DNA of 23,945 nucleotides from a virus. Below are positions 4,189 to 23,528 of this stretch, piece by piece. The number at the start of each line of letters is the position of its first letter. The stretch's first letter is position 1. Below the pieces are notes generated by a model. That model was not told where the DNA came from. It did no database searches and saw nothing but the letters and a program-made list of their open reading frames with translations. The translations under genes and the position numbers were made by a program. Location: positions 1-23,945 of IMG/VR virus record IMGVR_UViG_3300031877_000010; one strand, given 5' to 3'.

Positions 4189-4407
4189 ATGAAGCCAGCC
4201 TTCGGAACGCCAGTTGGACAATGCGTCAAATGCCGCCAAGTTAAGATTGGCGGCGACTTCTTTAAAATGAAAAGCAGAGAAGTAAATGCCGAAGGCAAGC
4301 ACATGCAACGATTATACTTTGTCTGCTCAGACTGCCTACAAAATCATCCTCGCCAAGAGATCCGGGAACTAATCGTCAAAATCAACGACGGAGAATCCAA
4401 TACTTGA
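4189..4407 (+). CDS. Small zinc-binding protein
   Basis: A 72-residue protein with paired knuckles CVKC (about 12-15) and CSDC (about 46-49), consistent with one Zn site stabilising a beta-rich domain. The start ATG 4189 follows AGGTGA by about 8 nt. Its stop overlaps the TTG start of the glycosyltransferase (TTGA), so the two are probably co-translated. I do not recognise a family. Its place in the modification cassette (glycosyltransferase, methyltransferase, another zinc protein) suggests a structural or partner role there, but nothing in the sequence fixes a function. Confidence 0.75.
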   Translation: MKPAFGTPVGQCVKCRQVKIGGDFFKMKSREVNAEGKHMQRLYFVCSDCLQNHPRQEIRELIVKINDGESNT

Positions 4408-5081
4408 AACTCATTGCGGCGTATATTGTCTACAACGAGGCGCCTTTTTTAGCCATGAGTTTGAGCGCAATTAATGGGCTGGTTGATGAAGTTCTTATTG
4501 TGGATGGCTGCTTTGAAGGATTTGAGCCTGAAGCCAATGGCGCCAGTTACGACGGAACATTAAAAGTCATTAAGAAATTTCCCTTCAAGCAACCTCTTCG
4601 TTTAATTGAGGCACAAACTCCCTGGAAATCGGAAATGGATAAACTTAATCAATGGTGGCAATTCGCCGATGAAGACGATTGGCTTCTCGAACTAAGCGCT
4701 GATGAAATTGTTTTGCGGGGCCTTATGGCATATCGATGTTTTCCTTTAAAATACAAACTTGAGCATCAATACCGCGATTTAGATGTAGTTTTCACACAAA
4801 ACCTTAACACTTATTTTTACCTGCCAAATGATGTTGATTTCGGCGTCACATGGTACCCTAAACTCATCCACGTTAAACCAGGCATTCATTTCGCTGAAAA
4901 CCATTACACATTGAGGGACAAAGACGGCGGACAAATACCGGCACCAGGAAAATACACTAACGACCCCGACATAGAAATTTTGCATCTTCACCATTTAAGA
5001 AGCCCTGAACGGTTGAAAATGAGAAACGAATATGATAATTGGCGCTTTGACCATGAAAGGGGCGTCGAAAAACGTGAATGA
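4404..5081 (+). CDS. GT2-like glycosyltransferase (GT-A fold)
   Basis: A 225-residue protein. The N-terminus KLIAAYIVYNEAPFLAMSL and then VDEVLIVDGCF are the first two beta-alpha units of a GT-A glycosyltransferase, with NE (residues 11-12) typical of family 2. EDDWLLELSADEIV (about 91-104) carries the acidic metal/nucleotide-binding motif. A late His-rich segment (EILHLHHL) and a charged C-terminus follow. It would transfer a sugar from a nucleotide sugar to a protein, glycan or base; the acceptor is unknown. The start is TTG 4404, overlapping the previous stop, with GGAG about 10 nt upstream. No transmembrane segment is seen, so it acts in the cytoplasm. Possible targets are virion proteins or host envelope glycans. 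Confidence 0.88.
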   Translation: MKLIAAYIVYNEAPFLAMSLSAINGLVDEVLIVDGCFEGFEPEANGASYDGTLKVIKKFPFKQPLRLIEAQTPWKSEMDKLNQWWQFADEDDWLLELSADEIVLRGLMAYRCFPLKYKLEHQYRDLDVVFTQNLNTYFYLPNDVDFGVTWYPKLIHVKPGIHFAENHYTLRDKDGGQIPAPGKYTNDPDIEILHLHHLRSPERLKMRNEYDNWRFDHERGVEKRE

Positions 5082-5466
5082 ACATCCTGACGATTTCTGG
5101 GGACGAGTGCATCGAGCCGATGAATTATTTGGTTTTGGCTTAGATATTGGGGCCGGCGCAAACAAAGTTACTTTTGTCGGGTGTGATCTGCGGAAAATAA
5201 GCGACGTACAATGCGATGCATGTTATCTCCCCTTCCGTGAGAAAGCCTTTGTTATAACTGTTTTTCGCCACAGCCTTGAACATGTCAAGCAGTGGCCAAT
5301 GGCTCTCCAGGAGGCAAAGAGGATTTCAAGTTTCATTTTCATAATTCTGCCCAAAAAAGAAATTTGGGGAAATAGTGAGCATGTTCCCTATTTTGAGTTA
5401 GACGCTAAGAAAGTCAAAGATTTCGAGTATGGCATATGCTTTTTCCTGGAGGCTCATAATGGCTAA
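5074..5466 (+). CDS. Class I SAM-dependent methyltransferase, short
   Basis: About 130 residues. Motif I is GLDIGAG, followed by VGCDL (motif II-like) and DACYLPFREKAFVITVFRHSLEHV, the DxxxLPF...LEH signature of type-11 methyltransferases. The SAM-binding half is complete. The usual C-terminal strands are short, ending after an ILPKKEIWG strand, so it is a minimal form. The reading frame is open upstream to ATG 5032 and ATG 5053. GTG 5074 is preferred because AGGGG (5058-5062) lies 11 nt upstream and it would leave only an 8-nt overlap with the glycosyltransferase. The pairing with a glycosyltransferase suggests modification of a glycan or protein, perhaps O-methylation of a sugar. The substrate is unknown. 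Confidence 0.78.
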   Translation: MNEHPDDFWGRVHRADELFGFGLDIGAGANKVTFVGCDLRKISDVQCDACYLPFREKAFVITVFRHSLEHVKQWPMALQEAKRISSFIFIILPKKEIWGNSEHVPYFELDAKKVKDFEYGICFFLEAHNG

Positions 5467-10500: not shown

Positions 10501-10669
10501 ATGGAGTTTCGTTCAATATACAGCCTTCGTAATTGAGTGGACAAACGGCTCCAGAACGGTCTTCATGCGAGGAGAAACATGGAACGTAAATGTTGTTTTA
10601 ACGGCTGATGCGAAATACATCTGGACTTGGACAACTCAAACAGGAGTGTGGGTGCACAAATATGAGTAG
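7532..10669 (+). CDS. Giant membrane-anchored glycoprotein with beta-sandwich repeats
   Basis: 1045 residues. After a basic N-terminus, one hydrophobic segment (about 13-32, KIAILLFLLFIATLLGLQFL) is a signal anchor. Two related beta-sandwich domains lie at about 40-185 and 297-433, separated by a PPPPKPP linker (about 186-192) and an Ig-like stretch. A further Ig-like region starts near 435 (VTPPTIKLNL). Residues about 753-795 form a Ca-binding DTDNDEISDY/DNDTDNDYMND motif of thrombospondin-3 type. Two carboxypeptidase-regulatory-like domains occupy about 806-870 and 887-953. Many NxS/T sequons suggest archaeal N-glycosylation. It probably decorates the virion or infected-cell surface and binds host receptors or blocks superinfection; which one is not determined. 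The start ATG 7532 overlaps the protease gene. Confidence 0.9.
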   Translation: MSKQLRHVWKKFKIAILLFLLFIATLLGLQFLPKHYPPTGASVTLVVNSCNDAKTGWTSVDPHPHLEGTGNGYVYTNTQAATVGDFGFQDTTETGTITSVYVKVYAKSDNVMSDNIRIYISDGATWTDKGTISTTQTYTWYSKDVTTQLNTWTKINAGMLYLKYEYISTPYTTYADAAKLEVTYTPPPPKPPQYSNVGYNNTVINKQTVFTCKWVNGSFSPALLDTAIFSWNGTAPYSWVNMTVWELAKVTNKWSNASKFLLTAFKKIGFKFYCKDTSGLWNATTTTAFTVSPLILRPNADGDINEWTGTYASVNDQSDSTYASTTAASKKSIYNLQDISNVASVSSIVVKNRACGGTSGWYYRITCRSGTDDYYSGDIYVSTSYQDFSYNITTLKTWTTSLINALQAGEYSVFTQTHYVSEVWVEVCYTLYDVTPPTIKLNLAGNKAEGNYTALSRQKENFLYVNATVTDNIYVIDVLLSWYSGTWTNYTMTRDYPKSFYWKNMTNQASGIDYTFKIYAYDIKNNLTSYTWKKPNVTQQYPAEVPWITKYCRLGYSLGDLAYKHYFYHYAGFYSSVVQAMPVLPHEQLVDYGGEDTGFLLEKRPTSTYTITCSQYIWFWMENNLTAEDTIDNVYWHLWWRAIPNSVSLIYMKNEERTGSLGGISKQESVTVTKTDKTFNNEQQNVTLGGVVYHLSGKRLITSLSVSVDDNDVYELGTALSGASGSYPQILEHPNMTSFIIFNLPSNATLQGLDTDNDEISDYAELFTYWTDPFDNDTDNDYMNDKWEIDNGFNPLLWTQVAADLSLRIKDWDLTDNIQGAKVYLDGALKISDPNGWANYTRPSGQNYIIKVSHLGYWINNSLILLDQDKIVDVKCKLHDGEAWIRDYENFTNIVDAPVKFYNSTNHELASGTTDANGKCSFTNLPNATLIFKVWRNNTLVFSGYTPVLTENIIFQKHVNISYCITNEWCPRAVFSTDIGKNLGQVNASLWSFVQYTAFVIEWTNGSRTVFMRGETWNVNVVLTADAKYIWTWTTQTGVWVHKYE

Positions 10670-11627
10670 TCAAGCTCCCTTCCTCATCTATGGACACGTA
10701 AAGAAAAACGGGGTTGACCAAGCAGGTATCTCGGTTACGGTTAAAGATGAAACAAACAATGAGTCTTCAGTGGTCGTAACGAATGTTAATGGATTTTATG
10801 CAATAGACTTAGGGGACATTACAAGGTATCCATCTGGCTATGGCATAACCGACAATATTAAGGCATCTTGCACCGTTGAAGGCGCATACATTTACAAAAC
10901 TACAACCGTGAGCACCGCACTCATGGGGCGAGAATTACATCTTCTCCTTACCACAAAGGAAATTGACGACCAAGGAAGCGGCGTGGATGACGTTTCCCTT
11001 ACAAAACCCGTGCAGGTTGACGATATAGGCAGCGGAACGGAGAGCCTTATCTTAGATAAAATGTTCACCATAGAGGACGTGGGCCAAGGAGCAGACGAAA
11101 TCACTTTAACCATTAGCGGCGGCAACGTCGTAATCAATGACCTTGGGCAAGGCATAGATGTGATTGAGCAAGTGAGAGCCTTCATTGAAAGAAATGATTT
11201 TGGCAACGGCATAGATGAAGTAACCGTTGTCGGAGTAACGGAGAAAGAAATCGCTGAATATGGAGTTGGAATAGACGAAGTAATTGTTCTACCCGCCATT
11301 ATTCAGATAAGCGATTATGGAATGGGACAAGATGCAATCTTAATTGATAAACCAGTTGATGTTTCCGATTTTGGAAGCGGCGCCGAAGAAATAGTGCTTG
11401 AGAAGGGATTAGGAGACAAAGTAATCGAAGACGTCGGCCAAGGCTTAGACAGCATTGCAATCGATAAGGCTGTTGATATTCTCGATGTTGGCCAAGGTCT
11501 GGATGAAGTAATTGTCTCTACTGCCTCCTTCCCATTCTCTATGGCAATGGAGGAAATTTCGCCGATTACGATGGAAATGGAGGAAATCGCGTTGATTAAC
11601 ATGAAAATGGAGGAAGTAATAGCGTGA
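10662..11627 (+). CDS. Repeat-rich structural protein with ten short beta repeats
   Basis: A 321-residue protein from ATG 10662, inside the last codons of the glycoprotein gene (ATGAGTAG). Residues about 6-50 form a carboxypeptidase-regulatory-like beta domain (FLIYGHVKKNGVDQAGISV). From about 100 to 290 there are ten copies of a roughly 20-residue unit with core D-x-G-x-G-x-D-E-I-x-V (for example EDVGQGADEITL, NDFGNGIDEVTV, LDVGQGLDEVIV). The end holds three copies of a MxMEEI motif. Comparable DxGxGxD repeats occur in phage minor tail and fibre proteins, where they form elongated beta structures; this assignment is by resemblance. The last repeat contains GGAGG, which serves as ribosome-binding site of the GTG start at 11624. 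Confidence 0.85.
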   Translation: MSSQAPFLIYGHVKKNGVDQAGISVTVKDETNNESSVVVTNVNGFYAIDLGDITRYPSGYGITDNIKASCTVEGAYIYKTTTVSTALMGRELHLLLTTKEIDDQGSGVDDVSLTKPVQVDDIGSGTESLILDKMFTIEDVGQGADEITLTISGGNVVINDLGQGIDVIEQVRAFIERNDFGNGIDEVTVVGVTEKEIAEYGVGIDEVIVLPAIIQISDYGMGQDAILIDKPVDVSDFGSGAEEIVLEKGLGDKVIEDVGQGLDSIAIDKAVDILDVGQGLDEVIVSTASFPFSMAMEEISPITMEMEEIALINMKMEEVIA

Positions 11628-17827: not shown

Positions 17828-18083
17828 GAGGGCTTTGACAAAACGGGTTACTACGTACATAGGGGAAGGGGATATACGTAGTAAAAAAGTCCGAATGAAA
17901 GAAGTCCCTCCGAGTGAGCGCCTAATTTTAGGTGTGTCCTTCGCCATTGCCTCTCTGCTATGCCTCACAGCCCTCGAAATAGCCTATATGGTCGTAGTAA
18001 AGTCCTTCTCGAGCGAAATTTTCGCTGCAATCACACTTGTGATCGGCACTATTTTAGGCAGTTTCTTCGGAGCGAAAGCATAA
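17805..18083 (+). CDS. Two-TM membrane protein, holin-like
   Basis: A 92-residue protein. ATG 17805 is chosen because GAGG lies 10 nt upstream; TTG 17796 is in frame but too close to that site. The N-terminal 40 residues are basic (MRGFRWLKRALTKR), followed by two hydrophobic helices at about 42-65 (LILGVSFAIASLLCLTALEI) and about 70-88 (IFAAITLVIGTILGSFFGAK). The Gly-rich ending IGTILGSFFGA is seen in small two-helix phage holin-like proteins. The position, just before the terminase pair, and the partner membrane gene at 17143 support a membrane role in lysis or release. No match proves this. Confidence 0.75.
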   Translation: MRGFRWLKRALTKRVTTYIGEGDIRSKKVRMKEVPPSERLILGVSFAIASLLCLTALEIAYMVVVKSFSSEIFAAITLVIGTILGSFFGAKA

Positions 18084-18406
18084 TGACAATGAAAAAGCGT
18101 GATTCACGAGGGCCCCCCGTACCCCCCGAGGGAGGGGGGAGGGGTATAGAGGACTTGATCAAAATAGAATGGGAAATCATGGAAGATCTAAGGGATTTAG
18201 CCTTAAAAGCAAAGGATGAAAGATTAAAAGCCCTTCATTATCAAAATCTTTCAAGCCACGCCCGAACCTTAGCCTATCTTATTGGTCAATGCGGAGGAGG
18301 CATTAAGGAAGGTCAGGATTTGGCTAAACTTTTGGCGCGAATCAATAGGAAAGCACGTAAGTTTGTGAGGGATATCCGTCGTGGAAAAATCGTTACGGCG
18401 GCTTAG
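18083..18406 (+). CDS. Small terminase subunit candidate
   Basis: A 107-residue, strongly helical protein encoded directly before, and overlapping by 26 nt, the large terminase. ATG 18083 shares a base with the previous stop (TAATG); ATG 18089 is an alternative. A Pro/Gly-rich N-terminus (PPVPPEGGGRG) precedes helices IEDLIKIEWEIMEDLRDLALKAKDERLKALHYQNLSSHARTLAYLIG and GQDLAKLLARINRKARKFVRDIRR. Small terminases recognise viral DNA and are often short, helical and just upstream of the large subunit, but have little sequence identity. No clear helix-turn-helix is visible. The assignment rests on position and helical content. Confidence 0.72.
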   Translation: MTMKKRDSRGPPVPPEGGGRGIEDLIKIEWEIMEDLRDLALKAKDERLKALHYQNLSSHARTLAYLIGQCGGGIKEGQDLAKLLARINRKARKFVRDIRRGKIVTAA

Positions 18407-19661
18407 AGATGACCCCGTGTTCTTCGCTAAAACTTTCATGGATTTTGAGCCCTTCGATTACCAGAAAAAATTGCTGCTGGACTCCAGCCCGAGAATTGTA
18501 AGTTGCATGGGCCGTCAAACGGGAAAAACTACGACTATTGCTGTTAAGGCTATTCATTTTGCTTGGACCCACCCCAAAACCACTACATTGATCACAAGTC
18601 CTTCGTTAAGACAAAGTATGATCATGTTCGACCGCATCTTAAGTTTCATTTATGCTAACTCCTATCTGCCAAAAAGTGTGGTCCGCAAAACCCGCACCAT
18701 AATTCAATTGAGCAACGGCAGCCAGATCGTAGCCCTGCCCTGCAGCCAAAATTTACTACGTGGATACACCGCAAACCTGATTATAGCGGATGAATGCGCC
18801 TTCATGCCCGAAGAAGTGATCACGCAGGTTATTTTTCCCATGCTTAGCACAACCCAGGGATCCGCCATTTTCCTAAGCACGCCTTGGGGTAAAGACCACT
18901 TCTTTTACCGGGCCTTTATGGATCCTAATTATAGCGTGCACCGTGTCAGAAGCGAGGAATGCCCCCTAATCACAAAGGAATTTCTCGAAGAAATGCAGAG
19001 GAACATGACGGAAGACGCTTTTACCCGCGAATATCTGGCCGAGTTTAGCGAGGCGGCGAGCTGCTACCTTCCTCAGGACCTCATTCGCAGCTGCGTGGAT
19101 CCAGAGCTTGAATTTATGCCCAGCCTGGAAGTAGACGTCCCCTCAGGCGAATATTATGGGGGCGTCGATTTTGGCAAACTGGAAGACTATAGCGTCCTTT
19201 CAGTATTAAAACGCGAAGGAGACATTCTTAAATTGCTTCATCTTCGCGAGTTTCCAATCGGAACCCCCTATAGTAACGTGATAGGCTACTCAGTGAAAGC
19301 TAATCAAAAATTCAAATTCCGAAAAATGCAAGTCGACCAGACGGGAGTCGGCGAGCCTGTGCTCGAAGAATTGAAGGCTCAGGGCGTGCCTGCCGAAGGC
19401 TTAACTTTCACCATAAAAACCAAAGAAGAACTGCTCAGCTGCTTAAAAATTGCCATGGAACAGAAACGCCTCAAAATGCCCTATGACCGGCGCCTATGCG
19501 AACAGATCAACGAGCAGCAATACGCCTACAGCAAAAGCGGTCATCTACAATTCAGCCATCCTCAAGGTAGCCATGATGATATGTTATGGTCTCTGGCGCT
19601 TGCGGTTTATATTGCAACGATGGGAAGGGAGGAGCCCAGCCATTTAGTGAGGGCCTACTAA
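18381..19661 (+). CDS. terL: Terminase large subunit (ATPase and nuclease)
   Basis: A 426-residue packaging motor. The N-terminal ATPase has an adenine-motif-like DYQKKLL (about 26-32), Walker A GRQTGKT (44-50) and Walker B LIIADE (133-138), with coupling motif FLSTPWG (164-170). The C-terminal RNase-H-fold nuclease has the acidic residues D263 (GVDFGKLEDYS), D319 (VDQTGVGE) and D399/D400 (SHDDMLWSLALAV). It pumps DNA into the prohead through the portal and cuts concatemers. The GTG start at 18381 lies in the small subunit gene, and the stop is one base before the next ATG. The length is near the usual 420-550 for this family, so it is complete. Confidence 0.95.
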   Translation: MEKSLRRLRDDPVFFAKTFMDFEPFDYQKKLLLDSSPRIVSCMGRQTGKTTTIAVKAIHFAWTHPKTTTLITSPSLRQSMIMFDRILSFIYANSYLPKSVVRKTRTIIQLSNGSQIVALPCSQNLLRGYTANLIIADECAFMPEEVITQVIFPMLSTTQGSAIFLSTPWGKDHFFYRAFMDPNYSVHRVRSEECPLITKEFLEEMQRNMTEDAFTREYLAEFSEAASCYLPQDLIRSCVDPELEFMPSLEVDVPSGEYYGGVDFGKLEDYSVLSVLKREGDILKLLHLREFPIGTPYSNVIGYSVKANQKFKFRKMQVDQTGVGEPVLEELKAQGVPAEGLTFTIKTKEELLSCLKIAMEQKRLKMPYDRRLCEQINEQQYAYSKSGHLQFSHPQGSHDDMLWSLALAVYIATMGREEPSHLVRAY

Positions 19662-19662
19662 A

Positions 19663-21165
19663 ATGCGTGAGTTTTTTCGTGTTAAGAAGATCACTCGGAA
19701 GTGGGACCGGTCCACTGGCAAATTTCATTATGATATCCGATTTAAGACACGAACCGAGGTTACGCCCAGAACCGTAGCGGTGGCTGAGGCTTTCGGTTTA
19801 GGTGTTGACGAATACCAGGAGCACATAATCTACGACAACGTGGAGTTAAAAATCGGCCCTCAAGACATTGTTTACATCACGGGGGAGTCAGGTTCAGGTA
19901 AAAGCGTTTTGCTAAAGGCTTTAGAAAAGGACCTGGGCGATCAAGCTATAAACATCGGTAACGTCACCGATGGAGTTACTGATGGAGAGAAACCATTAAT
20001 TGACACTATTGGCGAGACTATGGAAGAAGGCCTCGAGCTCCTTTCCCGCGTAGGCTTAAATGATGCCTTTCTCTTTGTGAGGCGTTATAGCGAGCTTTCC
20101 GATGGACAGAAATACCGTTATCGAATAGCTAAGTTGATTGAGAGCGGCAGGCAGTTTTGGGTTATGGATGAATTCTGCGCCACGTTGGACCGGGATACAG
20201 CTAAAATTGTTGCTTTCAATGTGCAGAAGCTGGCTCGGCGCTATGGGAAAGCTGTTCTGGCTGCCACAACTCACACTGATTTATTTGAGGACCTATATCC
20301 TTCCGTGCACATTCACAAACGTTTCGGAAAGGAGATCCATGTGGATTACTATCCCAATGAATCAGCTGAAAAGTGCAGCCTAACTAAAGAAATGCACCTT
20401 GTAAAAGCCTCTCTAAAAGACTATAAAACGCTTGCTCACTTTCATTACCGAGACTCTAAAGGCATTCCCGTAGTGCAGAAAGTCTTCGCTTTAAAACGTG
20501 AAGAAGAAACCGTTGGCGTAATTGTTTACAAGTCTCCTGGAGTGATGGCTTTAGGTCGATCCTTAGTCTCAGGCCGCAAAATCGAATTAAATGAATTGAA
20601 TAAGGATTGGACCCTAATCGCTCGAGTTGTCATCCATCCAAAATACCGCACCATAGGCTTAGGCGCCAAAATAGTGAAGGATACGCTCTTCAAATGCGGA
20701 AGGCCATATGTTGAGAGCATCGCAGTTATGGCCCGCTATAACCCATTTTTCGAACGAGCAGGCATGCAAAAAATAATTGAGAGCACTCCGGACAAGCGGA
20801 TCCTCCAAACCCTCCTCGGCCTCGAGGAAATCGGCTTCGACTTAACCTTCCTCAGCAGCGAAGCCTACAACCTGCATAAACTCCATGCCTCCATGGAGAC
20901 ACGAGAAAAGGTCAAAAAAACGCTACGAGAATTGGGCTGTAAAAGCGGCATCTACCGCAAACGTTTAGCCTCATCCGGCCAAGCCTTCCTAAATAAAAAC
21001 GAATTTGAAATGGTCCTCGAGAAAGCCGACGAAGAGAAACTCGCCAAAATGCTCCGCATACTCAGCTTCCTGGCGCAACCCAAGGTCTATTTATTCTGGA
21101 AAAATGAGCCAGCTATTAGTTTCACACAATTTCTGAGCCAAAATACATTACAAACCATTGCCTAA
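19663..21165 (+). CDS. ABC-type ATPase fused to GNAT acetyltransferase domain
   Basis: A 500-residue soluble protein. The ABC ATPase has Walker A GESGSGKS (74-81), signature LSDGQ (145-149), Walker B FWVMDE (165-170), D-loop ATLD (173-176) and switch His204 (TTHTD). It lacks transmembrane segments, so it is not a transporter. Residues about 245-385 form a GNAT fold: motif A RVVIHPKYRTIGLGAKIV (321-338), with RxxGxG for acetyl-CoA, and the later YNPFFERAGM (359-368). A basic helical C-terminus (about 400-500) follows. It starts one base after the terminase stop, so the two are co-transcribed. The acceptor is unknown; possibilities are nucleobase modification linked to packaging, as in Mom-like phage GNATs, or protein or translation targets. 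Confidence 0.9.
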   Translation: MREFFRVKKITRKWDRSTGKFHYDIRFKTRTEVTPRTVAVAEAFGLGVDEYQEHIIYDNVELKIGPQDIVYITGESGSGKSVLLKALEKDLGDQAINIGNVTDGVTDGEKPLIDTIGETMEEGLELLSRVGLNDAFLFVRRYSELSDGQKYRYRIAKLIESGRQFWVMDEFCATLDRDTAKIVAFNVQKLARRYGKAVLAATTHTDLFEDLYPSVHIHKRFGKEIHVDYYPNESAEKCSLTKEMHLVKASLKDYKTLAHFHYRDSKGIPVVQKVFALKREEETVGVIVYKSPGVMALGRSLVSGRKIELNELNKDWTLIARVVIHPKYRTIGLGAKIVKDTLFKCGRPYVESIAVMARYNPFFERAGMQKIIESTPDKRILQTLLGLEEIGFDLTFLSSEAYNLHKLHASMETREKVKKTLRELGCKSGIYRKRLASSGQAFLNKNEFEMVLEKADEEKLAKMLRILSFLAQPKVYLFWKNEPAISFTQFLSQNTLQTIA

Positions 21166-22526: not shown

Positions 22527-22814
22527 CTATCCTGGGTTGCATACTTCGCATGGGCGGTATCCGGCTGCTCTGGCTTCTGCTGGGCTGTCAAACCATATCT
22601 TATTTTCAGATTTGATTTTTTCAGCGTAGCGGCATGATGGCTTATGGTATACGTTGGATTCTTTGCTGGCGACAACCCGCTCAATTGTGGTTTGTTGATT
22701 TTGTGATGGGGTGCTCGTAGTAGGCGGCTTAGGTAGAGAGAGTAAATACAATGGGATAATCGTGCCTATCGCTATTAAAGACAAAGACGCAAAAATAATG
22801 TATTTTCGCTTCAT
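22527..22814 (-). CDS. Membrane-anchored Ada-type metal-binding protein
   Basis: A 95-residue protein. An N-terminal hydrophobic helix (about 5-27, IIFASLSLIAIGTIIPLYLLSL) anchors it or acts as signal peptide, followed by a Ser/Thr/Pro-rich linker. Residues about 46-93 read VVASKESNVYHKPSCRYAEKI and SPAEARAAGYRPCEVCNPG, the fold of the Ada N-terminal metal-binding domain, with Cys62 and the CxxC pair visible; the spacing Y-H-x-x-x-C fits. In Ada this domain repairs methyl phosphotriesters, but stand-alone versions, often membrane-linked, probably have other roles. The start ATG overlaps the stop of the upstream ribbon-helix-helix gene (ATGA), so the two are co-translated. Confidence 0.84.
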   Translation of the reverse strand: MKRKYIIFASLSLIAIGTIIPLYLLSLPKPPTTSTPSQNQQTTIERVVASKESNVYHKPSCRYAEKIKSENKIWFDSPAEARAAGYRPCEVCNPG

Positions 22815-23276: not shown

Positions 23277-23528
23277 TTGCCTAATCGTTTCTGCTATACC
23301 TGTAGGCACTACGTCAAAGATGGCAGCGGATTATGTACGGCGAAGGCTGAGCAACATGGACCCTACCACACATGCGATCAGCACGAATATTTCGGCACAA
23401 TTTTGGAGTGTCCACTCTGCGGATGGCCTCCGCAAAGGTTCTTCAGCCGATCAGCCTTGAAACGGCACATAACGAGGATGCACACGAGATCCCGCGCCCT
23501 TGAAGTCTTGCCAATCAAGGAGGCTTAA
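23277..23528 (+). CDS. C2H2 zinc finger protein
   Basis: An 83-residue protein from TTG 23277. The C-terminal part CPLCGWPPQRFFSRSALKRH then ITRMH is a C2H2 finger: the CxxC pair, the hydrophobic F and L positions, and the HxxxxH pair. An N-terminal part has CYTCRHY and further C/H residues (CTAKAEQHGPYHTCDQH), suggesting a second zinc site. C2H2 proteins are common in archaeal viruses, usually as transcriptional regulators. The preceding purine-rich AGGGG ends 3 nt before the TTG and GGAGG lies about 13 nt away. It follows the ribbon-helix-helix gene in the same operon. DNA binding is probable; targets are unknown. Confidence 0.8.
   Translation: MPNRFCYTCRHYVKDGSGLCTAKAEQHGPYHTCDQHEYFGTILECPLCGWPPQRFFSRSALKRHITRMHTRSRALEVLPIKEA

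Follow-up and report, generated by a model that had tools for sequence, protein, structure and literature searches.

Acetyltransferases of the GNAT superfamily that are coupled with an ABC ATPase were earlier predicted to acylate a DNA base, and Tenacibaculum phage pT24 was named as a carrier (Iyer et al. 2013, NAR gkt573, as cited in PMC7824862). Two further systems invite comparison. Mom of phage Mu (PF25680) has a GNAT fold with an invariant His-Tyr (HY) pair after the first helix, but lacks an ABC domain and has SFAD and YQAxN motifs of its own. TmcA and NAT10 (COG1444) combine an ATPase with a GNAT domain and a helical tail, yet their ATPase is a RecD-like helicase and their substrate is RNA. 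The ABC-coupled GNAT family is presumably the one named COG2401 or MK0520-like. The MK0520 label occurs in the annotation of Cyrano; the literature searched contained nothing on MK0520 or COG2401. We know of no modified base or product reported for any member of this family and, to our knowledge, N-acetylation of the exocyclic amine of a viral DNA base has not been demonstrated for any virus.

Here, we analyzed a gene of this kind in a window of 23,945 bases, meaning the whole stretch of an IMG/VR virus record under study. The domain pair and motifs of its product are the same as in the pT24 system, and pT24 is among its sequence matches. With homologous ABC and GNAT halves, which in this family lie in one chain or in adjacent genes, the protein belongs to a known and previously predicted family.

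Domain structure of the protein

The ABC ATPase/GNAT fusion gene (19663..21165; all features are on the plus strand unless stated otherwise) encodes 500 amino acids, as supported by ORF calling, Pfam, alignment and an AF2 model. Its start codon lies one base past the end of the gene for the large terminase subunit, terL (18381..19661; phrog_2 9e-43, Terminase_6N 6e-15). The preceding ORF (18083..18406) overlaps terL and, by this position, probably encodes the small terminase subunit. Family searches of the window proteins gave no match for its product, and similar proteins form a small cluster in related loci.

The ABC half (residues 1-235; 19663..20367) matches Pfam ABC_tran (2e-11), phrog_293 (4.5e-36) and ABC ATPase folds in the PDB. 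It has a complete and conserved set of ATPase elements, namely the Walker A motif GESGSGKS (residues 74-81; 19882..19905), the signature LSDGQ (residues 145-149; 20095..20109), the Walker B motif with the catalytic glutamate, FWVMDE (residues 165-170; 20155..20172), and the switch His204 (20272..20274). In an alignment of 155 relatives, G74, S76, G77, G79, K80, L145, S146, G148, Q149, D169 (1.00), E170 (0.99), D176 and H204 are essentially invariant, with no exception for the four signature residues and the switch histidine. A transporter would have a membrane domain, whereas this protein has no hydrophobic or transmembrane segment (highest 19-residue hydropathy 1.19). An ABC-F ribosome factor was considered and rejected, as the NCBIfam and PDB matches fell far under the family cut-offs and were generic to ABC ATPases. 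A search of known defence systems returned weak ABC-type matches to MADS and others, and nothing stronger.

The GNAT half (residues 236-375; 20368..20787) is the more basic part of the protein (pI 9.8). Its signal in the single sequence is weak and below the Pfam cut-off (E 0.014-0.056), but 54 of 57 diverse relatives match Acetyltransf_1, and the GNAT fold is present in the AF2 model. The acetyl-CoA binding loop RTIGLG (residues 329-334; 20647..20664), which follows the Q/RxxGxG/A pattern of the superfamily, is kept across the alignment (R329 1.00, G332 0.93, G334 0.95). Also essentially invariant among the 155 relatives are H261, Y262, R299, R321, E351, M356, Y359 and F362; the last two (both 1.00) belong to a family-specific motif, YNPF (residues 359-362; 20737..20748). 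As the motifs of both halves are strongly constrained across the 155 relatives, they are not there by chance, and the sequences lead us to expect catalytic activity from both halves.

The C-terminal part (residues 376-500; 20788..21162) carries the conserved Y476 and W479 in the alignment and the AF2 model. An earlier note on this DNA had described it as a long basic C-terminus. It is indeed basic (pI 9.3), but only mildly so, with 19 K/R against 15 D/E, and for the most part it is a folded, helical domain. The other structural readings of that note, which were made from the letters alone, agree with our results: each motif it named is found at the residues it gave, the protein is soluble, a GNAT domain is present, and the gene directly follows the large terminase gene. 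A loss of the acetyl-CoA-binding residues in relatives, which the note had named as a point against its idea, was not seen, for these residues are retained.

Several other genes of the window are worth recording. A 339-aa protein (10608-11627) contains nine copies of D-x-G-x-G-x-D/E, many of them about 18-21 residues apart, and had no match in Pfam. In the structural region, a glycosyltransferase-like gene overlaps a methyltransferase-like gene (4404-5466). Near the end lie genes for two small proteins. One has a hydrophobic N-terminus and carries an Ada-type metal-binding domain (22527-22814, minus strand; E 7e-11), and the other weakly matches a C2H2 zinc finger (23277-23528).

Distribution and gene neighborhood

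Fused, full-length relatives were found in Bathyarchaeota genomes (up to 64% identity), in Nitrososphaeria genomes (about 40% identity), with 80 of 113 encoding archaeal loci kept, and in 364 IMG/VR stretches (up to 66% identity) by an alignment search, where a single-sequence search had returned one. Because such relatives occur both in the genomes of these archaea and in several hundred IMG/VR stretches, the gene is, by sequence kinship, an archaeal virus gene, and the host of the window virus was probably a Bathyarchaeia archaeon. Among genomes of the same class, 42 of 151 have the gene, in up to nine copies. These copies are mostly proviral, since many adjoin terminase and virion genes. 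Several copies in the Bathyarchaeia genomes G001-G153 have internal stop codons, and one genome holds nine copies; the stops and multiple copies represent many decaying proviruses. The ABC-GNAT protein is better conserved than its neighbor, with a median identity to the window of 54% versus 33% for the adjacent TerL, and the higher value of the two in 72 of 76 loci.

The earlier note had called for a survey of terL linkage in other genomes, and this linkage is recurrent, so that the idea of the note withstood this check as well as that of the acetyl-CoA residues. A same-strand TerL lies upstream of ABC-GNAT in 68 of 83 viral entries, a set that includes two entries each for the window and for one contig. 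In 45 of the 83 it lies within about 60 nt, which underestimates the immediately upstream cases because the python gene calls over-extend starts; in the remaining 23 of the 68 it is farther away, up to 5.6 kb. Many related TerL genes have no ABC-GNAT gene, and the close relatives among them are often directly followed by a gene of portal-like length. ABC-GNAT is therefore an accessory gene in a slot behind TerL.

In bacterial phages, the order is ParB (one or two genes), ABC and GNAT, usually just before TerS and TerL. The ABC and GNAT parts are split genes in SSU5-type, Rhizobium, Pseudomonas, Stenotrophomonas and Acinetobacter elements. Compared with the window protein, the ABC half of the SSU5-type phage-plasmids, Pseudomonas phage nickie and the Rhizobium phages is 43-50% identical, and the split-type GNAT half matches with an HH probability of 99.9% (E 1e-32). 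The split type also lies near terL in Rhizobium, Pseudomonas, Stenotrophomonas and Acinetobacter records, as in the window, but is made up of separate ABC and GNAT genes preceded by one or two ParB genes, whereas the window has a single chain. Fusions occur in the phages Leptospira LE4 and Pasteurella Pmp13. The window protein is about 135 residues longer than that of LE4, with the helical C-terminal domain added, and its gene follows TerL in an archaeal virus, whereas the LE4-type gene stands after ParB and before TerS.

One locus (L286) has a compact run of ParB, ABC-GNAT, TerS and TerL with overlapping or abutting ends, and in a Bathyarchaeota bin a single ORF of 646 aa (L090:5422-7362) unites ParB, ABC and GNAT. 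This triple fusion strongly indicates that the three act in concert. No ParB gene was seen in the window, itself a fragment.

The earlier note had taken the coupling to terL to suggest an action on viral DNA at packaging. The linkage is insufficient for this, as many phage homologues sit in a ParB-ABC-GNAT block upstream of TerS/TerL and some archaeal loci are kilobases away from TerL. The tight terL coupling and the ParB neighbors would also suit an accessory of packaging or chromosome partition, with an ABC half that moves DNA or holds it in a clamp and a GNAT half whose part is structural. We consider such a role very unlikely, for the acetyl-CoA loop and the HY pair are conserved throughout, the two halves are separate genes in many phages, and close TerL relatives do without the gene, several being followed by a protein of portal-like length. 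Instead, we favor an enzymatic role in which the GNAT half modifies the viral DNA.

The HY pair and relation to Mom and TmcA

The candidate active-site pair of the GNAT half is His261-Tyr262 (20443..20448), which sits after the first GNAT helix, as in Mom. Besides being invariant in the 155 relatives, it is kept in 10 of 10 phage homologues checked and in every subtype. In profile alignments it corresponds to the HY of all 11 aligned Mom sequences and to AHYR or AHYQ in five TmcA sequences; the alignment of E. coli TmcA with NAT10 places SHYK of NAT10 at the same position. By counting along the alignment, the NAT10 histidine is about residue 537, which we take to be a catalytic residue. The HYR and SRxxVHP motifs of TmcA/NAT10 both align with the window GNAT half.

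The profile of the window GNAT family matched those of TmcA (HH probability 95.6%, E 1.2e-8) and Mom (63-75%, E 7e-5 to 3e-5) with HY aligned, and that of RimI (88%, E 3e-6). With the first 65 GNAT residues alone, Mom reached 68% and RimI 14%. Column-shuffled control profiles scored at most about 22-24, versus 62.5 for TmcA and 39.6 for Mom. RimI and TmcA match each other with a score of 69.0, above the 62.5 of window and TmcA, the split phage-type GNAT matched TmcA weakly (25%), and the short-type GNAT matched RimI better than TmcA. Single-sequence searches of the window protein gave no signal for Mom, for which the family profile was required, and a weak one for TmcA. A sequence search with the GNAT profile at E 0.01 yielded no protein of known structure, PF25680 was absent among the 25 of 26 Pfam families listed for the window protein at E 1, and the Mom-like phrog_1384 was reached by only 9 of 57 relatives (best E 0.002). 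The SFAD motif of Mom is absent from the window protein.

The full-length AF2 model, built with 57 relatives, has a pLDDT of 90.2 and a pTM of 0.86, and its best match in a viral fold library is the LE4 ABC-GNAT protein (379 columns, E 1.3e-17). With the GNAT half modelled alone (pLDDT 91.9), the top three PDB folds were TmcA (8.6e-5), Mu Mom (1.9e-4) and NAT10 (1.9e-4), followed by ordinary N-acetyltransferases (E 4e-4 to 1e-3). Given this narrow margin, the ranking of the modelled fold serves as a pointer and does not amount to proof.

The proposition that HY proves base acylation was rejected, because RimI also matches in fold and profile, and the pair is suggestive only. In RimI itself, HY occurs in 3 of 17 sequences, at differing positions, and is no conserved feature. 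Since RimI and TmcA match each other well, the sequence data do not define a base-acylating clade, and by themselves do not establish a base-acylating ancestor common with TmcA or Mom. The match to RimI and the intact generic GNAT motif would agree with acetylation of a protein, such as the host RNA polymerase, a nuclease, or the terminase or capsid. There is precedent in phage GNATs acting on host proteins, as proposed for Rac (cited in PMC7824862). We hold this to be improbable here, as it leaves the ABC partner, the ParB partner and the HY pair of base acyltransferases unexplained.

An RNA substrate, tRNA or rRNA, would be in line with TmcA, which comes closest among the three GNAT families we compared, is the top fold match and is likewise an ATPase-GNAT fusion. 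Acetylation of this kind could tune translation in infected cells, and the role would be unfilled in the host group: PF13718, the TmcA GNAT family, was not found in 11 of its genomes (G001-G011), but was found in the Haloferax and Sulfolobus controls. However, the recurrent terL and ParB neighbors point to DNA, the tRNA-binding domain of TmcA was not recognized in the window protein, and the ATPase is of the ABC type rather than a helicase, with both PF13718 and the helicase family absent among the 25 of 26 Pfam matches listed. RNA acetylation thus seems unlikely to us, and acylation of viral DNA remains the reading that we prefer.

For the Mom family, phage Appa offers a likeness to the ABC-GNAT loci in its ParB neighbor. 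In this Microbacterium phage (L209:3469-4621), a ParB gene is directly followed by the Mom gene, which overlaps its end; ParB is also the partner of ABC-GNAT in other phages.

Proposed function in viral DNA modification

We consider it reasonably probable that the protein is a nucleobase acyltransferase which works as a single chain, depends on ATP and acts on the DNA of the virus itself, the most likely purpose being protection from host nucleases. On ATP, the ABC half would dimerize head-to-tail, close around DNA as a gate or clamp, and present a base to the GNAT half. With acetyl-CoA or another acyl-CoA and His261-Tyr262, the GNAT half would then acylate the exocyclic amine of that base, the model chemistry being that of Mom on adenine and of TmcA/NAT10 on cytidine. 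Co-expression with the terminase, as suggested by the operon linkage, would allow the DNA to be modified before or during packaging, and the modification would protect it from host nucleases. The protein would thus follow the TmcA plan of ATPase, GNAT and helical tail, with a different ATPase.

Base acylation is the best-supported reading, in view of the strong conservation of both halves, the conservation of the gene above that of TerL, the linkage to terL and ParB, the HY profile alignments, the fold ranking and the published prediction (PMC7824862). Against it stand the small fold margin, the RimI match, the missing Mom SFAD motif and Pfam match, the failure to find a ParB gene in the window, and the accessory nature of the gene. 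The earlier note had likewise raised the possibility of a Mom-like modification of viral DNA, and the linkage, the HY pair and the Mom fold speak for it. Its novelty did not survive: the note saw a candidate for an undescribed activity, whereas acylation of a base by ABC-coupled GNATs had already been predicted and published in outline (Iyer et al. 2013, via PMC7824862). We found no description of how the gene is spread through viruses of Bathyarchaeia, of its place behind terL, of the triple fusion or of the HY link to Mom and TmcA, some of which Iyer et al. 2013 may include. More tentatively, we suggest as a possible but doubtful extension that the protein could be an ABC-driven DNA counterpart of TmcA/NAT10, widespread in Bathyarchaeia viruses and producing, for example, N4-acetyl-deoxycytidine in viral DNA.

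This family has been predicted since 2013, and the HY pair, the relation to Mom and TmcA, and the homologues in phage-plasmids, whose hosts are ordinary laboratory strains, now make the question directly testable. If acylation is confirmed, it would constitute a new DNA base modification, would suggest HY as a mark of base-acylating GNATs, and would help to explain how archaeal viruses evade the nucleases of their hosts.
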